Assembly (NCBI GenBank): GCA_903905065.1
Contig: CAIVEW010000050.1
Span: 1-64,000, forward strand
Length of the DNA: 64,000 nt
Direction of reading: 5' to 3'
From: an uncultured Bacteroidota bacterium
Lineage (GTDB): Bacteria > Bacteroidota > Bacteroidia > Chitinophagales > Chitinophagaceae
The notes under the pieces were generated by a model that was not told the origin of the DNA, did no database searches, and saw nothing but the letters and a program-made list of their open reading frames with translations. Position numbers and translations under genes: made by a program. Below are positions 47,023 to 61,000 of the stretch, one piece after another (within the stretch, counting starts at the first letter, position 1; every line of letters starts with the position of its first letter).

Positions 47023-47127
47023 GTGATTTATCAAAAACTGAAATTGCACAAAAAATATTGCCCCGGTGGCCGATTTGCGCTTATATTTCCCTGTTTAAGT
47101 AATACTTTTAACGCCTAAATCGTGCCC

Positions 47128-48672
47128 ATGAAACCTGTTCCCCTGGAACAATTTCTTCCCTTTGCTCCTGTAGAAAGCAGCATTACCGGGGAAAACCGAA
47201 GAGCCTATTTGGTATATTATTTATGCTGGATGTGGGCCGCGATTGTAACCATACTGCTTGTGATCAGAATGTTGATCAACCATGCATTCCTGGTACATGA
47301 TCTTAGTATTATTCTTACGCTGGATATAACCTTTACTATTACTTTATTGGTCAACAGAAAAGGCAACTCGCCGACTGCGGCATATTTGTTTATCTGTACG
47401 TGTATCGGGCTGACTACAATTGCAGCCTTTATTTCAGGTGGCGTAACCACACCGGCAATGATGACTTATCCACCAGCCATTTTTGCCGGCGGTATATTGT
47501 TTGGGAAAAGAGGCGGGCTCATAACAGCTGCGGTTTGTATTTCTATCACGCTTATCATGCTTGTGCTCCAGGTAAACGGTTTCGTGCCGGTGTCGCCGCT
47601 TTTTAAAAATCCCATCGCGTACTGGCTGGGTTTTGTAACGGCTGCGCTTGTGATGGGCGTTTTGCAATACATAGTCAATCATCAGACTAGCCTTGCATTT
47701 GAAAAAATAAGCCACCAGGAAGAACGCTACCATTCGCTTATCGAGCAAGCCAGTGACCCGATATTGCTGATGAACGACGATACGTCGATCATTGAAGTAA
47801 ACAGCAGCGCGTGTAAAGCGTTGGGATATTCGCGTGACGAACTGTTGCAGATGAAGCTTGCAGATCTTTTTGCTTTGGAGGAAATCGAAACGCGCCCTTT
47901 GCAGACGGAATATCTCAGGCAACATAAAACATTATTGACCGAACGGCAATGGAGGGCAAAGGACGGCAAAATACTGGCGATGGAGGTGCATACCAAGGTA
48001 CTTGAAGGGCAAGGGTATCTGGCTATAGCGCGCGATATTACTGAACGTAAATCAATAGAAAAAAAGTTGCGGGAAAGCGAGGAAAAGCACCGGGCCTTGA
48101 CGGAAAACCTGACCGATGCAATAGTGCTCATTGACAAAAACGGTAAGATTACCTACCAGAGTGCTGCAGTAGGACGCATTGGCGGGTACACATCAGAGGA
48201 AATAAAGGACGAAACAATATTTGAATTCATTCACCCGGAGGATGTGCCTCGTAGTATAGAATTGTTCAAGAAAGCCCAGGCTCTGCCCGGTGTGCCACTG
48301 AATGGCCAGTATCGCTCTCTGCACAAGGATGGCAGCTATATCTGGATAGAAGGGACAATTACGAACTTGCTCCACAATGAAAGTGTGAAAGCATACATCA
48401 TCAACTACCACGATATAACCGAACGGGTAAAATATCTAAGTGACATCGAGGCGCAAAATAAAAAACTGCGGGAAATAGCATGGGTGCAATCGCATGTTGT
48501 GCGAGCGCCACTGGCAAGAATGATGGGGCTTGTGAATGTACTGCGGGAAATAGATATGGGCTCTGAAGAGTTCGATAGATGGGTCGGTTATTTTGATGCC
48601 ACTGCGGATGAACTTGATAATATCGTGCATGACATTAGCGTTAAAGCGAAAGATATACCTGTAGAGCAATAA
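47128..48672 (+). CDS. Membrane PAS-PAS sensor ending in an orphan DHp-like module (no ATPase domain)
   Basis: 514 residues from ATG 47128; a GTG two codons earlier is also open. Six membrane helices (~30-195, e.g. IVTILLVIRMLI and LITAAVCISITLIMLVLQV) form an unusual sensor domain, followed by two PAS domains (ERYHSLIEQASDPILLMNDD, ending ARDITERKSIEKKL; HRALTENLTDAIVLIDKNG, ending NYHDITERVKYL). The C-terminus is a DHp-like hairpin with His456 in AWVQSHVVRAPLARMMGLVN, then the protein stops. No HATPase_c domain follows and the next gene is unrelated. The same module ends the receiver protein at 57145. Confidence 0.85.
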   Translation: MKPVPLEQFLPFAPVESSITGENRRAYLVYYLCWMWAAIVTILLVIRMLINHAFLVHDLSIILTLDITFTITLLVNRKGNSPTAAYLFICTCIGLTTIAAFISGGVTTPAMMTYPPAIFAGGILFGKRGGLITAAVCISITLIMLVLQVNGFVPVSPLFKNPIAYWLGFVTAALVMGVLQYIVNHQTSLAFEKISHQEERYHSLIEQASDPILLMNDDTSIIEVNSSACKALGYSRDELLQMKLADLFALEEIETRPLQTEYLRQHKTLLTERQWRAKDGKILAMEVHTKVLEGQGYLAIARDITERKSIEKKLRESEEKHRALTENLTDAIVLIDKNGKITYQSAAVGRIGGYTSEEIKDETIFEFIHPEDVPRSIELFKKAQALPGVPLNGQYRSLHKDGSYIWIEGTITNLLHNESVKAYIINYHDITERVKYLSDIEAQNKKLREIAWVQSHVVRAPLARMMGLVNVLREIDMGSEEFDRWVGYFDATADELDNIVHDISVKAKDIPVEQ

Positions 48673-48783
48673 TTATCTTTGACCGTTTCGCGGACGTTAT
48701 TTGTGATAGTAATTTATTATTGATCCACACGTTATTAGAAATGAATACGTATCCCTAACTTTATATTAAACGGCAATGTTTTT

Positions 48784-49440
48784 ATGAAAACCGGATGTCC
48801 TTTTGGATTTTTATTTGTTTTTTCGATTGTATGTTTTGTTTTTTTGAACAGTTGTAAGAAACAAACTGACTCAACATTGGATTTTAATTACAGTGTTACT
48901 GCCGAACTAACGTATACAGAAGGCTGTTTTCAGACAACCATCAAACTAGACAGTGATTACTTATGGGATTTTGGTGATGGAACTATTTCGGCAGATTCGA
49001 CTAACTTTTGCCACGTTTATCGCTCTGGTGGTACATATGAGGTGAAATTATTCTCAAATAAAACCCCGTCTCTGATTAAAAAAAATATTTCGGTACCTTC
49101 CCCAAAATACAGAGCACTGATGGCCGGCACAAGACTTTGGCATCACTTTTCTGTATCAGGGACTTATGGTGGTAGCCTCCCTCCGGATACGGTAATAAAT
49201 TCGGATGTCTCCTTTTCAATAAACTTTATAAATGACACATCGATTTTGTTCTATAACTCACAAACGCTTATTGGAAATAGAAATCAATACCAAAATATTT
49301 ATGAAGTTGATTTTGAAAATAATAATAATTATAATACAACGATAAGCCTGGTTTACTATTTTTCCGATAATAGCCTCTATTATATCGAAAATATTGGAGG
49401 GTCAGGCGGATATGAAAAAGACATCTATCAGACTTTTTGA
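48784..49440 (+). CDS. PKD-domain lipoprotein, AT-rich
   Basis: 218 residues. A lipoprotein signal (FVFSIVCFVFLNSC, Cys24) is followed by a PKD-like domain with the hallmark YLWDFGDGTISADS and CHVYRSGGTYEVKLF. The rest (~110-218) is Asn- and Tyr-rich beta structure (YEVDFENNNNYNTTISL). PKD domains mediate surface protein or sugar contacts. Its base composition is clearly more AT-rich than the neighbours, which could mark recent transfer or weak selection. Confidence 0.8.
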   Translation: MKTGCPFGFLFVFSIVCFVFLNSCKKQTDSTLDFNYSVTAELTYTEGCFQTTIKLDSDYLWDFGDGTISADSTNFCHVYRSGGTYEVKLFSNKTPSLIKKNISVPSPKYRALMAGTRLWHHFSVSGTYGGSLPPDTVINSDVSFSINFINDTSILFYNSQTLIGNRNQYQNIYEVDFENNNNYNTTISLVYYFSDNSLYYIENIGGSGGYEKDIYQTF

Positions 49441-49471
49441 TGTGAATCTTTCCGGAAAATAATTTTTGCGT

Positions 49472-49503
49472 TTGGAACGTCAATATAAATACGATTATCT
49501 TTC
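49472..49503 (+). promoter_or_regulatory. Candidate promoter of the symporter gene
   Basis: TTG at 49472-49474, 21 bases, then TATCTTTC at 49496-49503 (one base off TAnnTTTG). The predicted start near 49509 gives a 13-base leader. Confidence 0.5.
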
Positions 49504-49521
49504 CAATCAGACCTGCCATTT

Positions 49522-51246
49522 ATGAGCACCCCCGATTGGATCGTATTATTCGTCACACTCGCCACAATGATAGCCTATGGGCTGCACAAGGGCAGGGGGC
49601 AGAGCGGTGCGCATTCTTATCTGCTGGCAGATAAGCAAATGCCGTGGTATGTGGTGCTGCTGGGCATTATGGCCACGCAGGCCAGCGCTATTACTTTTCT
49701 TTCGGCGCCGGGGCAGGCTTATATCGATGGGATGCGGTTTGTGCAGTACTACTTTGGCCTGCCTATCGCTATGATCGTGATCTGTGTCACATTCATCCCC
49801 ATCTTTAGGAGGCTGAATGTATATACCGCTTATCAATACCTGGAGGAGCGTTTCGACCGCAAGACCCGGCTGCTTACCTCATCTTTGTTTTTGTTGTCAC
49901 GCGGTTTGTCTACGGGTATCAGTATTTATGCGCCGGCTATTATTCTTTCCTCCATTCTTGGCTGGAATATTTACCTCACTAATGTGGTGATGGGAGGGCT
50001 GCTGCTTATATACACTTATGCGGGCGGTGCTAAGGCCGTGGCACATACACAGAAGTTGCAGTTCCTCATCATCCTCGGCTCTATGGGGGTAGCGGGATTT
50101 CTTGTTGTTCATCGTTTGCCGCCGGGTATAGGCATGAAGGATGCGCTATACATTGCTGGCAAGAGTGGTAAGCTCAATGTCATTACCACTCATTTCGATT
50201 GGAAGGATAAATATAATATCTGGAGTGGCCTTATCGGTGGGTTCTTTCTTGCGCTGTCTTATTTCGGAACTGACCAAAGCCAGGTAGGCAGGTACATCAC
50301 CGGCAAGGATGACCGGGAAAGCAAACTAGGTCTCTTACTGAACGGCCTCGTGAAGATACCCATGCAGTTTTGCATATTGCTTATAGGTGCGCTGGTCTTT
50401 GCTTTTTATAGCTTTCAGCCTGCGCCGGTGTATTTTAATACTGCGGCGTATGATGCTTACAGAGCCCATGAACCGGAGTCTGCCGCAAGTGAAACTGCTT
50501 ATTACCAGATGCTTCGCACGATGAATGAGGGTAATGTGAAGCGTATAGCTGAGATGCGGAAAAATGCCGAAACGCGGAACAGTCGTCGGAATACTGCGAT
50601 AGACTCCCTGCTTGGCGATAAACAAATGGACGATGCCGTTTATGAGTTTGCATCCGTTCAGCACCAGATAGAGCGCCACCGGGAAAAGGTTTCAGAGATG
50701 ATGTACACACATCATTATACACCTGATAAGAATGACACTAACTATATCTTTCTATATTTTGTAAAGAATGCCTTGCCTGTGGGGGTTGTGGGTTTGTTAT
50801 TTGCGGTTATCATACTTGCATCGTGGGGCTCTATATCTGCGGCGCTTAATTCTCTTACGGCATGCTCACTTATGGATGTGCAGTTGATAGCGGGCAAAAC
50901 GATCACCGAAAAACAGGAGTTGCGTTATGGCCGCTTGCACACGCTCTGTTGGGGAGTATTTTGCATTTGCATCGCCATGTTTGCGGCCCGGCTTGGGTCG
51001 CTGATAGAAGCAGTAAATATTCTGGGCTCTCTTTTCTATGGCACTATACTAGGGATATTCCTTGTAGCATTCTATATGAAGCGTGCTAATGGGAATACCG
51101 TTTTTACGGCAGCATTAATTGCAGAGGTAAGTGTGATAATCATTTATTGGTTGGACATTGTTTCTTTTCTATGGCTGAATGTAATTGGGGCGTTGCTGGT
51201 GGTGATGATAAGTTTGGGATGTTATTTCAAAAAGACGATGGAATAA
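49522..51246 (+). CDS. Sodium/solute symporter (SSS family)
   Basis: 574 residues with 13 or so membrane segments. QASAITFLSAPGQAYIDG, YTAYQYLEERFDRKTRLL and ALSYFGTDQSQVGRYITGKD are SSS (SLC5-like) signatures, the last including the conserved Gln-Arg pair of helix 6-7. A polar insert of ~100 residues (~300-400, AYRAHEPESAASETAYYQML to REKVSEMMYTHHY) lies between membrane segments, longer than in typical members. It imports an organic solute, probably a sugar or carboxylate, with Na+. The substrate is not evident. Confidence 0.92.
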   Translation: MSTPDWIVLFVTLATMIAYGLHKGRGQSGAHSYLLADKQMPWYVVLLGIMATQASAITFLSAPGQAYIDGMRFVQYYFGLPIAMIVICVTFIPIFRRLNVYTAYQYLEERFDRKTRLLTSSLFLLSRGLSTGISIYAPAIILSSILGWNIYLTNVVMGGLLLIYTYAGGAKAVAHTQKLQFLIILGSMGVAGFLVVHRLPPGIGMKDALYIAGKSGKLNVITTHFDWKDKYNIWSGLIGGFFLALSYFGTDQSQVGRYITGKDDRESKLGLLLNGLVKIPMQFCILLIGALVFAFYSFQPAPVYFNTAAYDAYRAHEPESAASETAYYQMLRTMNEGNVKRIAEMRKNAETRNSRRNTAIDSLLGDKQMDDAVYEFASVQHQIERHREKVSEMMYTHHYTPDKNDTNYIFLYFVKNALPVGVVGLLFAVIILASWGSISAALNSLTACSLMDVQLIAGKTITEKQELRYGRLHTLCWGVFCICIAMFAARLGSLIEAVNILGSLFYGTILGIFLVAFYMKRANGNTVFTAALIAEVSVIIIYWLDIVSFLWLNVIGALLVVMISLGCYFKKTME

Positions 51247-51306
51247 AAACTGCCACAAGGCATGACCTCATGGCAGCATTTTCAGATTATTCCCTCTTTT
51301 CAAATT

Positions 51307-52482
51307 TTACATCGGCACCTTTTCATCTACGGTTACTTCCGTCTTTGTTATCCGTGCTACCTTTTCTTCTTTACGTTCGGCTTTTCTCATTTTCCTTTCG
51401 GCTCTCATATAAGCGTGCCTTTTTATCAATTTGTACTGATCAGTTGGTTGGGCAGGGTTATAACCGGCATAACCAGATATTTTTTCCACGTTGATGTTGG
51501 CATTAACCACTGCCGCTGAGTCAGGGCAAACGGTAATGTTCTGGTCTTGGTCATTAACGGTTACTTTGTAAGTTTCCGGAACCACATCTGTTTTCATTGT
51601 GGTGTTCAGCAATAAGGGTTTAGAAGGGTTTGCATCAGCGATGGCTGCATTTGCATATTTAGGGTGTTTGTGATGCCTTCTCATATGGTAGTATACAAAT
51701 ACCTTGTCGGTAACTTCACTCTTCTGGCCGCTAGCAGTTATTTCCACTGGTTTAGAGGTTATGTTAACTGGTGCGGTGATACAAGCTGTTCCACCCTTTC
51801 CACTATTGGGGTAAAAGGCGTTCCCGCAAGCAGCCAGGAAGTACACATAGCCAGTTGAACCGGTAACCTTCCATGCTTTAACTCCGTCATCGCCAAGATC
51901 CAGTTTTGAATAAGAGGCAGTATAGGTACCATCGCCCATATTACCCATTGTGCCGCTTGGTATGGTTGCAGAAGTGACATCTGCCTGGCGTACATCTTTA
52001 GCTCCATTTGCAAACCCAATCGCCATCAGTATATTGTTAAATTCCGACATCTGGTGGTTGTCCTTGTCTGCGTTCCTTTTGATTGCCTGGTATACCTGTG
52101 CCGCAGAGGCTTTGTGCTGTAAGAATGGGAATTCCGGATCGGTACCTAATTTTTGTATATTCTTAGGAGTACCGACATTGCTAAAGTTGAAATATGGGCT
52201 ACGATACCCTTCATACGATTTGCTTCGGTTGACGCCATTTTGGTCGGTTGTTGCCACACCGTTTTGGTTTGTCATTGTTGTATTTTGGTCGGTCATTGTG
52301 CCGCTTTGATCAGTTGTTCTTGTTTTTTGTGTTCCGGCGTTATCAACTGGCTCGTTCTGCTCTCTCTTCACCGCATCTTGCTGGATCTGATCCAGGGTTT
52401 TTCCTGTCTGCAGGGTGTCGTCTTGTGCGAAGAGTGGGTAGCCTGCCGTCATAAGTGCGAGAATTACTAATATCCGTTTCAT
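51307..52482 (-). CDS. Exported protein with Asn/Gln/Thr repeat region, function unknown
   Basis: 391 residues with a signal peptide (MKRILVILALMTAGYPLFA). Residues ~55-85 are a degenerate repeat of TDQNGxxT type (TTDQSGTMTDQNTTMTNQNG). The middle (~105-300) may be globular (PEFPFLQHKASAAQVYQAIK, YTASYSKLDLGDDGVKAWKV, YFLAACGNAFYPNSG). The C-terminal end is Lys/Arg/Glu-rich (RAERKMRKAERKEEKVA). No known domain is recognised. It converges with the symporter gene. Confidence 0.72.
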   Translation of the reverse strand: MKRILVILALMTAGYPLFAQDDTLQTGKTLDQIQQDAVKREQNEPVDNAGTQKTRTTDQSGTMTDQNTTMTNQNGVATTDQNGVNRSKSYEGYRSPYFNFSNVGTPKNIQKLGTDPEFPFLQHKASAAQVYQAIKRNADKDNHQMSEFNNILMAIGFANGAKDVRQADVTSATIPSGTMGNMGDGTYTASYSKLDLGDDGVKAWKVTGSTGYVYFLAACGNAFYPNSGKGGTACITAPVNITSKPVEITASGQKSEVTDKVFVYYHMRRHHKHPKYANAAIADANPSKPLLLNTTMKTDVVPETYKVTVNDQDQNITVCPDSAAVVNANINVEKISGYAGYNPAQPTDQYKLIKRHAYMRAERKMRKAERKEEKVARITKTEVTVDEKVPM

Positions 52483-52662
52483 AGTATCTTGTTTTTAGTT
52501 TTAAGTTTTACTTTCCGCTGTTAATCTTAAAAATACAATGCCAATATGTGTGCAGGTTTGTTAAAAAACTATAAGCACCCGCGTTGCTTTTTTTGTTGTC
52601 CGCCGGTATCGAAACACAAGTGATTGAAAAGTGTGTTGTTAACTATTTCGATGTTTTTTGCG

Positions 52663-52670
52663 TATGTTTG
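52663..52670 (+). promoter_or_regulatory. Candidate -7 box for ricT
   Basis: TATGTTTG fits TAnnTTTG, predicting a ~127-base leader before ATG 52804. The gap 52483-52803 otherwise holds only a short GCACCCGCGTTGCTTTTTTT stretch near 52576 and AT-rich sequence. Confidence 0.35.
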
Positions 52671-52803
52671 TACCTGTGACTATTTTTTAACAATTGGCTT
52701 GATAGTGCAATTAAACGTGTGGTGTGGTACAACGATAGTTGGTGTCTGTTATATATAAATCGATAAGTTTTCTTGCACGCTTGCTCTATATAAACGTATT
52801 TAG

Positions 52804-54486
52804 ATGGGATGTGGCAGTTGCGGATCGGGTGCCAGTGGCAAACCGGGCGGGTGCAAAGGTAATGGTGGGTGCAGCACGGGCGGATGTAACCGCCTGAATG
52901 TTTTTGACTGGCTAAACGCCCTGCCCCTGCACGATGGGGCAAAACCTTACCCAATAATAGAGGTGTCTTTTAGTAAAGGCAGCCGGAAGGAATTCTTTAA
53001 GAACAATACCCACTACATGCTCGAAAAGGGCGATTGGCTTGCTGTAGAAGGCCTGGGTGGATACGATATTGGCCAGGTGAGCCTTACAGGTGAGCTGGTG
53101 AAATTGCAGCTAAAGAAATACGGTGTCAAGGAAGCAGAGGTGAGCAAGCGTGTGCTGCACCCTGCTACCGAGGAAGAACTGGAAGCTGCGGCCAAACAAA
53201 AAGAGCGCGAACCGGAACTGCTCACGCGTTCCAGGGCCATCGCACGCAGTCTGAAGCTGGATATGAAACTCTGCGAAGTGGAAGTGCAGGCAGACAGCAA
53301 AAAAGGGACTTTTTTCTACACCGCGGACCAGCGCGTGGATTTCCGCGAACTGATACGCGTATATGCCACCGACTTCAAAATGAAGGTGGAGATGAAGCAA
53401 ATAGGCGCCCGGCAGGAAAGTGGCAAAGTGGGCGGTATAGGGTCCTGTGGACGCGAACTATGCTGCAGTACCTGGCTTACCGATTTCAAATCTGTGAATA
53501 CCACGGCTGCGCGTTACCAGAACCTGTCAATAAACCAGACAAAGCTCAGCGGCCAATGCGGCAGGCTGAAATGCTGCCTGAATTATGAACTGGACACCTA
53601 TATGGATGCGTTGTCCATATTTCCTGATCAGGCCGAACGCCTGGAAACAGAGAAGGGAATAGCCCAGTTGCAAAAAAAGGACATCTTCAAAAGCCTGATG
53701 TGGTACAGCTATTCTGATAATAATAAGCAGTATCCACTGACTATAGCGCGTGTAAAAGAGATCCAAAAATTAAATAAGCAGGGCCAGAAAGCAGGCGAGT
53801 TACAGCCTGTGGAGCTGGAAACCAGGGAAAGCAAGGCCGGGATAAAGCCGGATATGGGCTATGTAAATGATGTGGGCCAGATAACGTTGAAGAACCTGGA
53901 GAATAAGAACAAAAAGAAGAAGAAGTCTGGCGGTGGCAAGGGTGGAGGCGGTTCGCAGGAGGCAGGAGGCAGGCCGCAGCAGGCAGCGCGCAGTTCACAG
54001 GATGCGGGAGGCAGTGAACAGGCCGCCAGGCCACAACAAGGAAATAAAGGCCCACGCCCCCAACAGCAGGGCGGTGGCCCGCAAGGCAATAAGGGGCCAA
54101 GGCCGCAAGGTGGAGGACCCGTCCGAACGGATCATCCGGGCGGGCAGCCGCAGGGTAATAAGGGAGGCGGCCAACCGCAGGGTAACAGGCCGCAACAACC
54201 CAAAAACCCAAACCAGGGAGGCCAGCCAAGACCTCCCCGGCCTGAGGGTGGACAATCAAGGCCGCCACGCCCGGAACAGCAGAACCGGCCACCAAAGCCG
54301 CCGGTGGACGGTGCGCAACCTTCAGGGGATAATCCGGGTGGGCAGCCACGACAGGAACGCCCACAGGGACAGCAACAAAGAAGGGACCGGCCAAACCGGC
54401 CGCAGCAACAGCGCAGGGACCGGCCAGAAGGCGAGAGCAGAGAACCCCGTAAGCAGGGTGGTGAGCCCGCGCCCCCAACTGAATAG
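52804..54486 (+). CDS. ricT: RicT/YaaT-family PSP1 protein with long disordered tail
   Basis: 560 residues. The N-terminus is Cys-rich (MGCGSCGSGASGKPGGCKGN, then CSTGGCN), a feature of Bacteroidota members. The PSP1/RicT core spans ~45-310: ARSLKLDMKLCEVEVQADSK, FTADQRVDFRELIRVYAT-like, IGSCGRELCCSTWLTDF and LSGQCGRLKCCLNYELDTY with the Fe-S-type Cys pairs. In Bacillus RicT with RicA and RicF matures RNAs and affects RNase Y. From ~370 to the end the protein is a low-complexity Gly/Gln/Pro/Arg tail (GGGPQGNKGPRPQGGG), probably RNA-binding or disordered. A terminator separates it from the next gene. Confidence 0.9.
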   Translation: MGCGSCGSGASGKPGGCKGNGGCSTGGCNRLNVFDWLNALPLHDGAKPYPIIEVSFSKGSRKEFFKNNTHYMLEKGDWLAVEGLGGYDIGQVSLTGELVKLQLKKYGVKEAEVSKRVLHPATEEELEAAAKQKEREPELLTRSRAIARSLKLDMKLCEVEVQADSKKGTFFYTADQRVDFRELIRVYATDFKMKVEMKQIGARQESGKVGGIGSCGRELCCSTWLTDFKSVNTTAARYQNLSINQTKLSGQCGRLKCCLNYELDTYMDALSIFPDQAERLETEKGIAQLQKKDIFKSLMWYSYSDNNKQYPLTIARVKEIQKLNKQGQKAGELQPVELETRESKAGIKPDMGYVNDVGQITLKNLENKNKKKKKSGGGKGGGGSQEAGGRPQQAARSSQDAGGSEQAARPQQGNKGPRPQQQGGGPQGNKGPRPQGGGPVRTDHPGGQPQGNKGGGQPQGNRPQQPKNPNQGGQPRPPRPEGGQSRPPRPEQQNRPPKPPVDGAQPSGDNPGGQPRQERPQGQQQRRDRPNRPQQQRRDRPEGESREPRKQGGEPAPPTE

Positions 54487-54522
54487 CATAGACTAATACA
54501 AGCATAATTTGGAAAATATATA

Positions 54523-54561
54523 CGCCTTGTTGCTGCAAATGCAACAAGGCGCACTATTTTT
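54523..54561 (+). terminator. Terminator after ricT
   Basis: CGCCTTGTTGC (54523-54533) pairs perfectly with GCAACAAGGCG (54541-54551) around TGCAAAT; CACTATTTTT follows. Its 3' part is shared with the next gene's promoter. Confidence 0.82.
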
Positions 54562-54562
54562 G
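54530..54562 (+). promoter_or_regulatory. Candidate promoter of the DUF3078 gene, inside the ricT terminator
   Basis: TTG at 54530-54532, 22 bases, then TATTTTTG at 54555-54562. The predicted start near 54568 leaves a 19-base leader. The -33 element is in the terminator stem and the -7 box is its T-run. Confidence 0.5.
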
Positions 54563-54586
54563 CGCAACTTTTAAAAAATCGCACGA

Positions 54587-55615
54587 ATGAAAAAATTGTT
54601 TTTACCCGTTGTGTTTTGCCTTTCTTTTTGCTGTTCTGCGCAGGGCCAGATAAGTAAGAATGTAGACGACCTGAAAAAATCGCTGGAAACTACTAATAAG
54701 GATACCGTGGCATGGCTTCACGAAGGCCTGTTCTCCATTGGCATCAACGAAGGTTTTTTGCACAACTGGGCAGCGGGTGGTGAAATAGCTTCATTGGCCG
54801 TGAACAGTCTTTTTCAGGGCAACCTTACTTACGTTAACCATGGTAGTATCTGGAGCAACACGCTTGACCTGGCCTATGGCCTCAACTACGCTTACTCCAA
54901 TAGCTTTGTTCCACGTAAAACAGACGACCGCATAGATTTCACCTCTAAATTTGGCAGCAGGCTTAATAAGTCGACCGACTTTTATTACTCTGCCTTGTTC
55001 AATTTTAAATCGCAATTCACAAAAGGCTACGATTATACCATCCCGGGCTGGCAGCATGCGCCTACCTCCGATTTTATGTCTCCGGCTTATATGACACTGG
55101 CGCTAGGTATGGAATATAGGAAGGGTGCAGATATCAGTTTCTTCCTTTCTCCGGTTGCTGCACGCGAGGTATTGGCTAATTCCATATATACTTCTTTATC
55201 TCCACAAGGGGCTTTTGGTATTGATTCCGGCAAGACTAACAAGTTTCAGTTGGGCGCGTATTTTTCCGGCCGGTACAAAGTGGATGTGAAAAAGAACATG
55301 ACCTTTACCACCCGTCTTGATCTTTACAGCAACTACCTGGCAAAAAACACCACCAATGCCGCCGGTGTGATCGTGAAAAAAGACAATCCCGGAAACATTC
55401 AGTGCTTGTGGGATAACTTATTTGTGCTGAAAGCATACAAGGCTTTAAGCCTCACTTTTGGGCTTACCATTGTCTATGATAACAACTTCCCTTATAGTTC
55501 CACTTATGTGGACAAGACCACAGGCCTTACTGTAAATAAAAACCAACCCGGTGAAGGCCTCGGCTGGGCACAGGTAAGCCAGGTGTTTACTTTCGGGATA
55601 GCGTACAAATTCTAA
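54587..55615 (+). CDS. DUF3078-family outer-membrane-type protein
   Basis: 342 residues with a signal peptide (MKKLFLPVVFCLSFCCSAQG). GLFSIGINEGFLHNWAAGG is the DUF3078 signature, and alternating strands (SNTLDLAYGLNYAYSN, FYYSALFNFKSQFTKGYD, TFTTRLDLYSNYLAKN) ending in an aromatic C-terminus (VFTFGIAYKF) indicate a beta-barrel in the outer membrane. Function unknown; such proteins are near universal in Bacteroidota. Confidence 0.88.
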   Translation: MKKLFLPVVFCLSFCCSAQGQISKNVDDLKKSLETTNKDTVAWLHEGLFSIGINEGFLHNWAAGGEIASLAVNSLFQGNLTYVNHGSIWSNTLDLAYGLNYAYSNSFVPRKTDDRIDFTSKFGSRLNKSTDFYYSALFNFKSQFTKGYDYTIPGWQHAPTSDFMSPAYMTLALGMEYRKGADISFFLSPVAAREVLANSIYTSLSPQGAFGIDSGKTNKFQLGAYFSGRYKVDVKKNMTFTTRLDLYSNYLAKNTTNAAGVIVKKDNPGNIQCLWDNLFVLKAYKALSLTFGLTIVYDNNFPYSSTYVDKTTGLTVNKNQPGEGLGWAQVSQVFTFGIAYKF

Positions 55616-55685
55616 TCGCCCTCCTTCGCTGAAATAGCTTCGGCGGGTAAATAAGTCGTGAGTCATAAGTCGTAAGTCGTAAGTC
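55616..55685. repeat. Phrase repeats after the DUF3078 gene
   Basis: CCTCCTTCGCTGAAATAGCT followed by TCGGCGGGTAAATAAGTCG is a variant of the 37-bp unit at 3984. It runs into GTGAGTCATAAGTCGTAAGT, a 7-8-base iteration also seen at 7482-7516 and 4058-4083. Confidence 0.6.
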
Positions 55686-55842
55686 AGCGAGGGTCTGAGT
55701 TTAATTGCGCTTGCCTTGTCTGTTCGTTTTATGTAATGGTATAATATGTGTTTCGCCTATTGGATTTTCGACAAATAACTGCGTTTTTAAAGTTATTTTT
55801 GTCCCCCTCACGCACGAAACAACAAGTGAGTTTTTGATTTTT

Positions 55843-55850
55843 TACTTTTG
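55843..55850 (+). promoter_or_regulatory. Candidate -7 box for scpA
   Basis: TACTTTTG predicts a start near 55856, only three bases before the ATG at 55859, so the transcript may be nearly leaderless. Confidence 0.35.
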
Positions 55851-55858
55851 AATTTTAA

Positions 55859-56695
55859 ATGTCCGCATCTTACCAGATAAAGCTGCCCCAGTTTGAAGGG
55901 CCATTCGACCTGCTGCTATTCTTCATAGAGCGGGACGAGCTGGATATTTACAACATTCCTATTGCCAAGATCACTAACGAATTTCTTAGTTACATACATA
56001 CGCTGGAGAATCTGAATATAGAGCTGGCAAGCGAATTCATCCTATTTGTGTCCACCCTCATGCGCATAAAGGCGCGTATGTTGCTGCCGCGCCGCGAGGT
56101 AGACGCTACCGGAAAGGAGATTGACCCCCGCCAGGAACTTGTGGACAAAATACTGGAGTATAAGCGGTTCAAAGAGGCATCTGAGATGATGATGGTGATG
56201 GAAGCCGACCGACTAATGCAGCAGAAACGCGGAAACATAAAGCTGGAAATGGACCGGCTGGGAGAGTCGTATGCAGAGGGTACAGAGATACAGACGGTGA
56301 CGATGTACAAGCTGCTGCAGGCATATGAGAAGGTGGTTAAGAAATTCAACGAGCGCAACCTGAAGCCACAGCACGTGGTAGTAAAATACAACTACAGCCT
56401 GGAAGGGCAGCGTACTTTCCTGATAGACCACCTACAGGAGAAAAAGCGCGTGCCTTTTGAAATGTTGTTTGCTGCCTGTGAAAACAGGATACATGCTATT
56501 TTTACGTTCCTGGCCATGCTGGAACTCATTCAGCAGAAATTCATGGCCATACTTATAGGCACGGGCAGAAATAACTTCATTGTGGAATGGAACCCGGAAG
56601 GGGAGCGGCAAGATGTGCCTCTCGCAGAGGAGCGTAACGAGGGCATGCTACCACCGGCAGATGAAAGCGAAACTGGCACAGAAATTGTAGTATAG
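55859..56695 (+). CDS. scpA: Segregation and condensation protein A
   Basis: 278 residues. MSASYQIKLPQFEGPFDLLL starts the kleisin N-terminal domain, and IAKITNEFLSYIHTLENLNI, ASEFILFVSTLMRIKARMLL and RQELVDKILEYKRFKEASE are the ScpA signatures. The C-terminal winged helix is near RIHAIFTFLAMLELIQQKF. ScpA bridges SMC heads and, with ScpB, helps chromosome segregation. smc and scpB are not in the window. Confidence 0.93.
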   Translation: MSASYQIKLPQFEGPFDLLLFFIERDELDIYNIPIAKITNEFLSYIHTLENLNIELASEFILFVSTLMRIKARMLLPRREVDATGKEIDPRQELVDKILEYKRFKEASEMMMVMEADRLMQQKRGNIKLEMDRLGESYAEGTEIQTVTMYKLLQAYEKVVKKFNERNLKPQHVVVKYNYSLEGQRTFLIDHLQEKKRVPFEMLFAACENRIHAIFTFLAMLELIQQKFMAILIGTGRNNFIVEWNPEGERQDVPLAEERNEGMLPPADESETGTEIVV

Positions 56696-56834
56696 TATGT
56701 GCAGGCAAACTGCACGAAATTTCCCCCAATGCGCTGTCGGACAGTAGCTCCCGGGGATTTTTAGTTTTTATACCAATTGGAGATTAACATTAACAGCATA
56801 CTCAACGAAGCTCTTATATACTGCTCTTATATCC

Positions 56835-56933
56835 TTACTTTCTTTTTGCTTCGCCAAAAAGAAAGTAACAAACCTGCCTGCCGGCAGGCAGGGAAAAAGG
56901 CGAGTTTTGGCCAAAGGCTCCGCCGGCCAAAAC
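56835..56933. repeat. Composite of three inverted repeats in the scpA-receiver gap
   Basis: TTACTTTCTTTTTG-CTTCGC-CAAAAAGAAAGTAA (14-bp arms, 56835-56868), CCTGCCTGCCGGCAGGCAGG (56873-56892) and GTTTTGGCC/GGCCAAAAC (56904-56933) stand in a row. A block with this wording recurs in many Bacteroidota genomes and is often miscalled as a small protein. It fills part of the 449-base gap 56696-57144; the remainder shows no gene. Confidence 0.75.
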
Positions 56934-57144
56934 AGGGCTCTACGCGGTTATCTCACAGCATCTATCATCACCATGGCGCTGAAATTCTGCCTATCCGTGC
57001 TCTATTAAACTATTCGATCGTATCAGCTCAACGCTAGAAATTAGACTACTGAATTCGTATCTACGACAGCCTTAAGGCGCCATCATAGGCTCAACTTCAC
57101 ACCAACTATCGTCTACATTATTGTGTTTTGAACGCTATTTGGTA

Positions 57145-57789
57145 TTACGCCACCATAGCCTTTATTTCATTGGTCTTTTCAACGATGGAGTAGATCACAT
57201 CGTCGAAGGCAAGGGTAGCTACCTGCAGGTTTTTGATTATGTCCGTATTTATCGGGTCATTTGGATCCTCGAAATTAAACAGGTTGATGAGGCCCAAAAT
57301 ACTGGCTATAGGCCCCCGCACCTGGTGAGACTGGAGTGAAGCTATCTCGAACAAAGCCTTATATTGTTTTCTTAATATCTCGTCGGCTATTCTTTTTTCT
57401 TTCATTTTTTGCGCATCTTCAAGTGCGCGGGCTATTTTGGGTATGAGCGTAAATAATTTATCCTTAAGTACGTAATCAGTAGCGCCATTTTTAATCAGTT
57501 GTACGGCGTTTTCCTCGCCGATGGTACCCGATACCAGGATAAACGGAATATCAGGATTTTTCTCCTGTTTGATCTGCAATGCAGTCAATCCATCGAACGA
57601 AGGAAGTGCAAAATCGGATAGTATTATATCAGGCGTAAATTTTTCAAGTGCGCTTTCAAAAGCTTCTCGGGTTTGAACGTGTTCAGAAACGTATGGAAGC
57701 TTGTTTCTTTTCAACTCAAAATACAGCAGATCAATATCTGATGCCAGGTCCTCTATAAAAAGAATTTTCAATACTTTATCCATGTTCAC
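57145..57789 (-). CDS. Receiver domain fused to an orphan DHp-like module
   Basis: 214 residues. The receiver (1-~125) has acidic FIEDLASD, the phosphoacceptor Asp59 in DIILSDFALPSFDG, Ser/Thr in ILVSGTIGEENA and Lys109 in YVLKDKLFTL. A helical linker leads to ~141-210, where His155 lies in IASLQSHQVRGPIASILGLI, followed by a second helix (LATLAFDDVIYSIVEKTNEI-like). This copies the C-terminal module of the PAS protein at 47128 and resembles the dimerisation/phosphotransfer part of a histidine kinase, yet no ATPase domain follows. The gene is divergent from the hybrid kinase at 58067. Confidence 0.85.
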   Translation of the reverse strand: MNMDKVLKILFIEDLASDIDLLYFELKRNKLPYVSEHVQTREAFESALEKFTPDIILSDFALPSFDGLTALQIKQEKNPDIPFILVSGTIGEENAVQLIKNGATDYVLKDKLFTLIPKIARALEDAQKMKEKRIADEILRKQYKALFEIASLQSHQVRGPIASILGLINLFNFEDPNDPINTDIIKNLQVATLAFDDVIYSIVEKTNEIKAMVA

Positions 57790-58066
57790 GAATTAACCCC
57801 AAGCCACACATTCATAATTATCTTCATAACCATGAAGCCATTAGATGGAATTGTGTAAATGGTTAACAACAAAAATAGGCCTTTTAGAGCTATTGATCAG
57901 GTGGGAAAAACACCCTTTTTTTGTGTGGTTTTGCCCGAATCGCGCCAGCTTTTTGGACGCAATAAAATCAATAAATTCTATTGGCTCGATTTTAGAGGTG
58001 TATGTTAACTATTACCCAAATAATATTTTATCTTTATTCTGCCTTTTACCACCTAACAAATTTCCC

Positions 58067-61000
58067 ATGAAAATGACACTCAGCCAGAAAATTCTGGCCG
58101 GCTTTCTTATTTGCACCGTTATCCTGGTTGCCACCGCCATATTTGCCATCCGCAACAACGAAAAATACAGCGATACGACACAGTGGGTAAATCATACCTA
58201 TGAGGTATTGCAGGAATTTGACATGGTGCAAGGAGCCGTGCTTGATGCCGAAACGGGTACCAGGGGGTATGTGATCGCAGGCAATGATGTGTTCCTGGAA
58301 CCTTATAATGCGGCTAAGAGCTCCATAAACGAGCATTTAAGCAGGGTCCGGACGCTGACACTGGACAATGCGGCACAGCAACAAAATATCCTTACGCTGC
58401 AAAAACAAATAGAAACTAACGAAAAATACCTGGAGGAACTGATAGGCCTGCGGAGGAAGGATTTTGAAAAAGCACGGGAACTGGTGGCTACGGGAACAGG
58501 GAAACAATTGATGGATGACATCAGGCGGACGATAGCGAGTTGCAAGGATATGGAAAATAAGCTGCTTACGGAGCGAAAGCAGGCTAGTGCCGATGATGCG
58601 CGAAGTTTCAACACCGTCTTTATAGCGCTACTGATCGTTATCGCGGTTGTGCTGATAAGTGTGTTTGTCGTTATTAACACGAATCTTCGCGCGCTAAAGA
58701 AAGCAGAACAGGAAGCGGCAGACCGGAACTGGATACTTACGGGCAATTTTGAGATGAATGAAAAGATAAGGGGAGAAAAAACCGAAGGGGAGATCGCACA
58801 GGCGATCATCAATCAGCTTTGCACTTTTTTGAACGCCCAGATTGGCGCCGTATATCTTTTAGACAACCAGGAGCTGAAATTATCCGGCACTTATGCGTAC
58901 AATTTCCGCAAACAGAATACAAAGGTTATACAAATAGGAGAAGGACTCGTAGGCCAGGCTGCCGCTGAGAAGAAAACAATTGTATTTACCGAAGTACCGG
59001 ACGACTATATAAGAATAAATTCGGGATTAGGGAACGTTGTGCCTAAGAACTTGCTCTTGTTGCCATTGCTGCAAGAGGATTCTCTGAGAGGTGTAGTGGA
59101 AATAGGTTCGGCCAAAGAGTTTTCTGCTTTGCAGATGGAACTCCTGGGGAAGATAGGGGAGAATATAGCCATCGTGATCAGTGCGGCACAATCCCGCACC
59201 AAATTAAAAGAACTACTGGAAGAAACGCAACGGCAGGCTGAGGAATTAGAAACACAGCAAGAGGAGTTGAAGCAGTCGAACGAAGAACTGCAGGAGAAAA
59301 CAGAAATGCTCGAAAAATCAGAATCAGCGTTGAAGACCCAGCAGGAAGAACTGCAGCAGACCAATGAAGAGCTGGAAGAGAAGGCCAATCTGCTGGAAGA
59401 GCAGAAGGAGAAACTGGAAAACGCGAAAATGGATATAGAGACCAAGGCGCGTGAACTGGAAGTAACCAGTAGGTATAAATCTGAATTCCTGGCTAATATG
59501 TCGCACGAACTGCGCACGCCACTTAACAGTGTTCTTATCCTCGCCCAGTTGCTCGCGGAAAATAAGAGTAAATCACTGGCTGAAAAAGAAGTGGAGTTTG
59601 CCAGGAATATATACAATTCCGGTACGGACCTGCTTGACCTGATCAACGAGATACTTGACCTTTCAAAAGTGGAGTCGGGCAAGATGGAGCTGGATATCGC
59701 AAATGTTTCGATGGCGGATATCAAAACAGATATCAGCGCAATGTTCTCGGAAGTCGCGAAAAATAAATCGATCGAGTTTGCATTTCAGCTAAACGAAAAA
59801 GAAGTACCCGGCGATATAGAAACTGACAAGCAACGACTGGAGCAGATACTCAGAAATCTTTTGTCCAATGCCTTCAAGTTTACCGGCAAGGGAGGCAAAG
59901 TGCAACTCGCGATAGATGAGGCTAATAAGAACGATCTCCTTTTTAAAAATCCTAAACTCTATCAATCGCCTGGAATTATTTCGTTTGCTGTTACTGATAC
60001 CGGCATAGGGATACCTAACGATAAACTCAATATTATATTTGAAGCATTCCAGCAGGCAGACGGATCCACAAAACGTAAGTATGGAGGTACGGGACTTGGC
60101 CTCTCTATCAGCCGCGAGCTTGCCAATGCGCTTGGCGGTGAGATACAACTGAAAAGCGAAGAAGGTAAGGGGAGTACATTTACACTCTATTTGCCCGTGA
60201 AGTTCGACGCCTCGATTACTGAACCTACGGCGCGTACTATAGAAGTAAAACAGAACAATGAGGGTGCGCCGCAAAAAAGCCGGAAAATTGAAAAACCTCA
60301 CGTGGTGGAAGGTGAAGTTATTGATGACCGTTACAGTATAGGTGAGAACGATAAGACGGTGCTGATCATGGAAGATGATAAGGAATTTGCGAAGGTGCTG
60401 CTGTCATTTGCACAGGAGCGCCAGTACAAAGGAATTATTGCTTACGAAGGAAATACTGGGCTCAGCTATGCGCGGCACTACAAGCCGGATGCGATAATCC
60501 TGGATATGAAACTGCCGGTAATGGATGGTACGGATGTGCTGAAACTGCTGAAGGCGGATCCTGAGCTGAGGCATATTCCGGTTCAGATCATCTCGGGATA
60601 TGACATGAAAAAGGAGGGACTAGAACTAGGTGCATTTGGTTTTATGCAAAAGCCGATCTCCCAAAACGACTTGCAGTCGGCGTTTACACGGATCGAAGAT
60701 TTTATCAGCAAAAAACTGAAAAAACTATTGATCGTTGAGGATAACAAAGAGCATAATGAAGCTATAAGGGAACTGATAGGTAATGGGGATGTAAAATGTT
60801 TCTCGGCTTATTCCGGGAACGAGGCGTATGAAATAATGTGCAAGGACAGTTTTGATTGTGTGATCGTTGATCTTGGTTTGCCGGATATGACGGGGTTTGC
60901 GCTCATGCAGAAAATAAAAGATAACAATGAGCTTAAAAACACGCCGATCATCGTTTATACGGGCAAAGACCTCTCGAAAGACGAAACCAGCCGCCTGAAC

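Follow-up and report, generated by a model that had tools for sequence, protein, structure and literature searches.

Histidine phosphotransfer (HPt) domains carry phosphate on a histidine between receivers without making it themselves and fold as a single-chain helical bundle, unlike the helical hairpin that is the subject here. This hairpin, the module, forms the C-terminal end of two proteins, P0001 and P0002, encoded in a stretch of 64,000 nucleotides (the window) of contig CAIVEW010000050.1 from an uncultured Chitinophagaceae bacterium (Bacteroidota; assembly GCA_903905065.1). It resembles the dimerization and histidine phosphotransfer (DHp, HisKA-type) part of a histidine kinase that has no CA (HATPase_c) domain behind it, and it may serve as a sensor-coupled phosphotransfer domain. 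Which described systems come closest? Spo0B, ChpT and PhyT are dimeric histidine phosphotransferases of kinase origin. In the available sections of PMC5898713, Spo0B and ChpT are termed degenerated kinases, and PhyT is described as a membrane-anchored protein with a putative sensor domain that has kept a degenerate ATPase domain and that acts in the series Pak-SdrG-PhyT-PhyR, where phosphate moves through its histidine from SdrG, a single-domain receiver, to PhyR. As far as that account goes, the module proteins share with these three a kinase-type hairpin, a phosphoacceptor histidine and a predicted absence of autokinase activity, whereas PhyT retains a degenerate ATPase domain of which the module proteins have none, and the module family differs from all three in its varied inputs and its up to about ten copies per genome. 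Since a degenerate ATPase domain is absent, the module family stands outside the Spo0B/ChpT/PhyT group; the likeness to Spo0B drawn in an initial annotation of this DNA therefore holds for function and not for membership.

Proteins with HisKA and without HATPase are already known. Those of archaea have PAS/GAF or REC inputs and a conserved histidine, number up to seven genes per genome and were proposed to act as phosphoacceptors or phosphatases (sections of PMC5847659; for the roles also PMC1183210), and the same part of PMC5847659 states that no partners are known for those with REC. By that partial description, the module family is of the same kind, with sensors followed by a C-terminal HisKA-like domain that has the histidine and no HATPase. 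Among HisKA proteins in SMART, 1556 of 42417 are without HATPase and 711 of these have the motif HE/DxxN/T (excerpt of PMC3591291), which occurs in 0 of the 154 modules examined here. The same excerpt describes CheA3 and CheA4 as having phosphoacceptor and ATPase parts on separate proteins; their phosphoacceptor is CheA-type, unlike the module, and Hik36-Hik43, a split CheA in the part of PMC7656254 that treats it, offers no parallel to the module. Among the matches listed in the open-licence literature of PubMed Central, a scope outside which subscription journals and preprints lie, no earlier description of a bacterial family of this make was found.

Profile searches bear out that both window proteins end in the module, with His456 in P0001 and His155 in P0002, and stop where HATPase_c should start, as the initial annotation had proposed. 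The C-terminal end follows after 58 residues in P0001 and after 59 in P0002 (Table 1). In one single BLASTP comparison the two proteins agree at 16 of 33 positions over the box around the histidine, with an expect value (E) of 2e-07. Pfam HisKA (PF00512) gives 19.1 bits for P0001 and 12.8 bits for P0002, both under the cut-off of 26.9; neither has a Pfam match to HATPase_c, nor a match to HPt (PF01627) at E up to 1. Against an 8-row module profile, of which it is itself one row, the P0001 module scores 108.8 bits. Profile scans place PAS domains at residues 199-304 and 315-436 of P0001, whose reading frame also holds an additional upstream GTG at 47122. The gene of P0002 lies on the minus strand, a point absent from the initial annotation; its REC domain scores 49.3 bits with Pfam, above cut-off, and its best NCBIfam profile is LvrB (E 4.4e-41, residues 5-158), under the LvrB cut-off.

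How far does the module extend beyond these two proteins? A profile of the two modules found nine HATPase-less proteins in this 4.68-Mb genome, with inputs, labelled partly by eye, of REC alone (P0002), membrane-PAS-PAS (P0001), REC-PAS-PAS-PAS, REC-PAS-PAS, PAS (two proteins), GAF, and TPR with a membrane segment (two proteins, one with a divergent module), which extends to nine proteins the earlier view of a DHp-type phosphoacceptor part without ATPase behind differing inputs. PAS kinases whose boxes read SHNLR or SHSLR are their closest HATPase_c-bearing relatives in this genome. Of 198 genomes sampled from the class, 72 have a module match at E up to 1e-10, some of the matches being kinases; of 345 genomes sampled from the phylum, 32 have one at E up to 1e-15, and 11 of these 32 come from outside the class. 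A scan of GTDB contigs with two peptide patterns, one including the histidine box, gave 146 relatives, and the 80 fetched carry 79 Bacteroidota titles and that of one Spirochaetaceae metagenome-assembled genome (MAG). Judged by a HATPase profile built in this analysis, HATPase_c is absent from all 140 open reading frames (ORFs) of the fetched loci with module scores of at least 64 bits, from 23 of 26 at 50-64 bits, 3 of 5 at 40-50, 4 of 9 at 30-40 and 1 of 10 at 15-30, counts that include 20 loci chosen for a suggested fusion or adjacency or for a borderline score (these 20 enter neither the 154- nor the 132-module counts) and that come from family searches biased toward such proteins, both having used HATPase-less module profiles. 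That most homologues carry HATPase_c directly after the module, which the initial annotation had named as an argument against itself, is thus not what these homologues show.

The set used for conservation comprises the 60 best-scoring places outside genome G000, 80 of the 146 relatives, 6 loci of the own genome and the two window genes; L015 (27 bits) was excluded. Of its 154 proteins, 152 stop at 0-41 residues beyond the hairpin match, and the other 2 continue into REC. A scan of 89 N-terminal parts (alignment A7, 89 of 91 parts) matched PAS_9 in 69, REC in 27, ETR1_N in 6, MASE11 in 4 and GAF_2 in 4. A tree was built from 116 hairpins, namely 51 of 151 ordinary modules, 9 of the own genome, 11 with fusions and 45 with HATPase, and on it HATPase presence switches only 3 times against a shuffled mean of 35.9, suggesting loss of the CA domain with few origins, the fewness of origins being all that a tree of 68 columns with 64 of 113 inner branches unresolved speaks to. 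The matches to ETR1_N (ethylene-receptor-like) and MASE11 suggest that some inputs are probably membrane sensors.

Which residues are kept? The histidine is present in 153 of the 154 modules, Arg at H+3 in 153 and Pro at H+5 in 151, and, as one of the peptide patterns includes the histidine box, the 62 modules found by profile only were counted separately and have all three residues in 62/62; the loss of the histidine that the initial annotation had held up as contrary evidence has not occurred. Asp or Glu at H+1 is found in 38/154 modules against 18/27 HATPase-bearing relatives, and Thr or Asn at H+4 in 0/154 against 8/27. In CrdS and three further HisKA kinases, mutants tie the acid at H+1 to autokinase and the Thr/Asn at H+4 to phosphatase activity, which in HisKA proteins requires this residue (PMC3510030). 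The counts thus indicate that the phosphate-carrying site is strongly selected, the kinase helper relaxed and the phosphatase helper absent. Furthermore, Asp at module column 59, in the second helix, is found in 152 of the 153 modules with a residue there and in 12 of 25 kinase relatives. The sole module of the 154 without the histidine (SLEVRGP) is the middle one of three tandem module proteins in a Cytophagaceae MAG (L203:961-6330).

The phosphoacceptor histidine in an SHxxRxP box and a helical hairpin are HisKA (PF00512) features, and the module has the box in its sequence and the hairpin in its predicted structure. Residues 130-214 of P0002 were modelled with AlphaFold2 from an 80-row alignment as helices 2-27, 29-41 and 50-84 (model numbering; mean pLDDT 91.2); a single-sequence model of the whole of P0002 reached a pLDDT of 75 in the best of five, the rest being below 50, and was not used. 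Of 80 modules (in alignment A6, the two of the window and 78 of the 84 listed), 79 match HisKA at E up to 1 (best 1.3e-08), and an 80-module profile matched HisKA kinases in the PDB with a best E of 9.7e-08. No HPt match was found among the 80 modules in the 25 of 35 families listed. A structure search with the hairpin model returned the kinase HK853 (4jav; Z 9.2, root-mean-square deviation 2.1, 81 aligned) tied with unrelated helical hairpins of up to Z 10.1, and Foldseek found no match at 0.001 (best E 0.34). As many unrelated hairpins tie in the fold search, the fold is compatible with HisKA and indicates nothing beyond that.

What are the partners of the module? The initial annotation had not foreseen single-domain receivers, which, as judged from gene fusions and gene neighbours, appear to be the linked partners. 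Fusions of the hairpin to a C-terminal REC, without ATPase, occur in 12 proteins of 6 genomes: two come from the class sample (L082 and L120, with REC within about 30 residues of the hairpin) and ten from loci picked for this (L231, L232, L233, L235, L236, L237, L238, L243, L244 and L245). By hairpin score seven of the 12 reach at least 50 bits and five lie at 34-42 bits; L235 and L236 are identical at 263 of 281 residues, perhaps as two copies of a single gene. In addition, 18 of 132 modules have an adjacent single-domain REC gene on the same strand, against 4 of 562 control ORFs of the same loci (Fisher p 1.4e-10). The downstream receivers are separate frames directly 3' of the modules, abutting or overlapping them, although the overlaps are those of stop-to-stop frames and true starts may not overlap. 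They belong to the REC class also seen in the fusions, with an LDINMPxMxGW-like box and a TSS-xxxx-D signature, and in nine aligned members the paired Asp, the phosphoacceptor Asp, the Ser and the Lys are all invariant. A second receiver class, which we take to be Rcp1-like, lies upstream of REC-PAS-module and REC-module proteins. The own genome holds 8 receivers of the downstream class at E up to 1e-20. In the Spirochaetaceae-titled MAG contig (L205:4708-6598) a module protein has a frame of this receiver class (class I) directly behind it, by horizontal transfer or through a misbinned contig.

Of 394 other genomes of the class, with at most seven candidates scored per genome, 6 contain a full-length REC-module relative of P0002; these relatives share 50-62% identity with it and stop 58-64 residues past the histidine. 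Since full-length relatives in other genomes have the same ending, P0002 is not the product of a frameshift, and its truncation is refuted. In four of the six (L281, L283, L288 and L289) the gene is the last in a row of kinase, Rcp1-like receiver and REC-module protein, the row of L281 holding one additional REC gene. L282 is cut by a contig end, which leaves five relatives with readable neighbours. L083, the nearest match to the window layout, is flanked on one side by a receiver on the opposite strand; its other neighbour is a divergent regulator of sigma-54 type, which a hybrid kinase follows. Complete REC-HisKA-HATPase relatives occupy the same slot behind kinase and receiver in two of three loci examined (L284 and L286, not L285). 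Moreover, the conserved Lys of REC and the histidine are 46 residues apart in 7/7 REC-module proteins, and among six HATPase-bearing relatives that fit the search pattern, four have this same distance, one has 53 residues (one heptad more) and one has 56. LvrB has the make Rec-DHp-CA, and helix lengths in REC-controlled kinases favour multiples of seven (part of PMC13269768). P0002 is like LvrB-type kinases in having REC followed by DHp at a fixed register, as judged from the REC-module proteins and the six HATPase-bearing relatives, and P0002 and its full-length relatives differ from LvrB by the lack of the CA domain. P0002 thus seems to resemble a REC-controlled kinase minus its ATPase, with a REC that could still steer the hairpin, and the ATPase may have been lost from a REC-kinase ancestor.

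How could such proteins work? We favour, with a probability of roughly 0.6 and on grounds of sequence comparison, that the module is a CA-less sensor-coupled phosphotransfer domain that exchanges phosphate with single-domain receivers and is like Spo0B, ChpT and PhyT in its working. A HisKA-type hairpin for dimerization and phosphotransfer would have lost its catalytic half and become a stable C-terminal domain. The module proteins would dimerize through the hairpin and would not phosphorylate themselves; ordinary kinases would charge single-domain response regulators, a receiver would pass the phosphate to the module histidine, and the histidine would then pass the phosphoryl group on or return it, again to a receiver. 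The protein's own REC could possibly also exchange phosphate with the module histidine in P0002 and its relatives. The N-terminal PAS, GAF, TPR or REC would gate the exchange, so that the signal would enter at the phosphotransfer and not at the kinase step. In the usual two-component picture the signal runs to the kinase and from there to the receiver, and kinase-less sensors would move the input to the transfer step. As a tentative extension, which we consider less probable, phosphorelays in some Bacteroidota could be distributed ones with many sensors that have no kinase activity: a small number of kinases would supply phosphate to a common set of single-domain receivers, and the CA-less sensors, up to about ten in a genome, would draw on this phosphate, direct it or give it back, each in response to its own signal. 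P0002-type proteins would then resemble a fusion of Spo0F with Spo0B, the receiver and the phosphotransfer hairpin forming a single polypeptide. If the favoured explanation is true, phosphorelays would include Bacteroidota proteins that are at present annotated as PAS proteins or as receivers, and fusions and gene neighbours provide partners that can be tested for a kind of protein noted in archaea, where, in the sections cited above, partners are stated to be unknown.

Several observations weigh against a phosphotransfer domain that works with single-domain receivers. No adjacent receiver is found for 114 of the 132 modules, nor for any of the 6 tested in the own genome, and neither window gene has one. 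The loss of Thr/Asn at H+4 is not specific to the module, 19 of the 27 HATPase-bearing relatives being without it as well, and the conserved Asp59 of the module has no explanation. Co-occurrence speaks for the link to receivers, the downstream class (E up to 1e-20) being present in 72/72 genomes of the class sample with a module match and in 41/126 others, and at a stricter module cut in 45/45 against 68/153. The test is confounded, however: it is uncorrected for kinship, genome size and receiver number, it uses a receiver profile built from module-adjacent receivers, and its 72 genomes include those with kinase matches. HPt domains, used as a control, are skewed too (67/72 module genomes against 64/126 others, p 1.6e-10), so relatedness of the genomes, their size or a wealth of signalling genes must account for a good part of the co-occurrence signal. 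This downstream class is also found behind full kinases, as three of the own genome's eight members are by their coordinates; the kinases ahead of these three are plausible phosphate donors. The own genome also holds three HPt domains and with them a phosphotransfer independent of the module. That the module substitutes for a missing HPt is unsupported, as 67/72 module genomes have HPt too.

The main rival, in our view unlikely, is that the module protein is phosphorylated in trans, by forming a mixed dimer with the hairpin of a kinase or by binding its ATPase domain, so that a kinase like P0003, the hybrid kinase encoded divergently to P0002, phosphorylates the histidine or is itself inhibited, as in RetS-GacS. 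The best PDB match of the module profile is a histidine kinase chain of 7n0e, which is presumably the GacS-RetS complex, and its second chain and RetS entries match as well. Six of 132 modules have an adjacent HATPase ORF on the same strand, each with a long N-terminal part, and EnvZ can be split into HisKA and HATPase chains, according to work cited in the excerpt of Amin et al. (PMC3591291). However, no HATPase-only gene lies within 150 nucleotides of the 132 modules, farther genes not having been sought, which also disposes of a split kinase with a neighbouring HATPase-only gene; two ORFs with an early HATPase in these loci are cut by locus ends and are 4 kb or more away, the acid for autokinase at H+1 is present in only 38/154, the fusions found are to receivers, and receivers are also the more frequent gene neighbours. 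P0003, the three-receiver kinase at 58067 that the initial annotation had proposed as partner, is left without support, since four of the five readable P0002 relatives lie in the row of kinase, receiver and REC-module protein; it stays a candidate. The pairing of P0002 with a kinase of the P0003 type is not seen at the loci of the P0002 relatives, which makes the divergent hybrid kinase of the window an unconserved neighbour.

Still less probable is a phosphatase or phosphate drain, a sensor-gated hairpin that strips phosphate from receivers. Galperin et al. proposed such an activity for archaeal proteins of this make (part of PMC5847659), and the receiver links are compatible with it, but the required Thr/Asn is absent in 154/154 modules; a drain by back-transfer to the histidine may occur and then merges with the phosphotransfer that we favour. 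A plain dimerization or docking domain whose histidine is never phosphorylated would fit the helical hairpin predicted for P0002 and the weak match of the module profile to DivL (4q20, E 0.061), which reportedly works without its histidine. We consider it very improbable, as the histidine is kept in 153/154 modules while H+1 varies and docking alone would not demand such conservation. Hardly any weight falls on broken genes or assembly errors, by which the module proteins would be truncated kinases: HATPase_c-bearing relatives exist and the loci fetched up to that comparison contain no ORF that is a full-length relative of P0001, and yet the identical ending recurs across many species, the tree holds few HATPase changes and no HATPase remnant is seen by eye past either stop. 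For P0001 this covers the 111 nucleotides up to the next listed ORF, and for P0002 the about 450 nucleotides to the next gene, in which none of 17 listed stop-to-stop frames is ATPase-like by eye. The frameshift that the initial annotation wanted checked at both genes is therefore excluded for P0002, and none is seen by eye for P0001, whose ending, without a full-length relative, is supported by the family pattern and not by orthologues.

Table 1. Positions in the window of the module proteins, their parts and neighbouring signalling genes.
Feature	Position	Strand	Remark
P0001, 514 aa, membrane-PAS-PAS-module	47128..48672	+	membrane part assigned by eye
P0001 C-terminal DHp-type module, residues 437-514, then stop	48436..48672	+	
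P0001 His456, predicted phosphoacceptor, box SHVVRAP	48493..48495	+	alignment column His in 153/154 family members
P0002, 214 aa, REC-module	57145..57789	-	GTG start (alternative ATG 57783)
P0002 REC domain, residues 9-110	57460..57765	-	Asp59 and Lys109 assigned by eye
P0002 C-terminal DHp-type module, residues 139-214, then stop	57145..57375	-	
P0002 His155, predicted phosphoacceptor, box SHQVRGP	57325..57327	-	kept in 7/7 full-length REC-module proteins including P0002
P0003, CHASE3-GAF-HisKA-HATPase_c-REC-REC-REC hybrid kinase, divergent to P0002	57845..61522	+	candidate partner only
Single-domain REC downstream of P0003	61532..61912	+	class I receiver profile 54.3 bits, weak match, outside top group

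The true start of P0003 is probably near 58064-58067, as judged by eye. Between 57845 and 63295 P0003 is followed by the genes of a REC protein, CheR and CheB, that is by chemotaxis-type modifying enzymes with no receptor in view, and beyond the window a REC-HATPase protein comes after these REC, CheR and CheB genes (L287). Downstream of P0002, positions 56873-56892 form a perfect non-coding palindrome of 20 bases, CCTGCCTGCCGGCAGGCAGG, which is present once in the window (shuffle mean 0.00, n=100).

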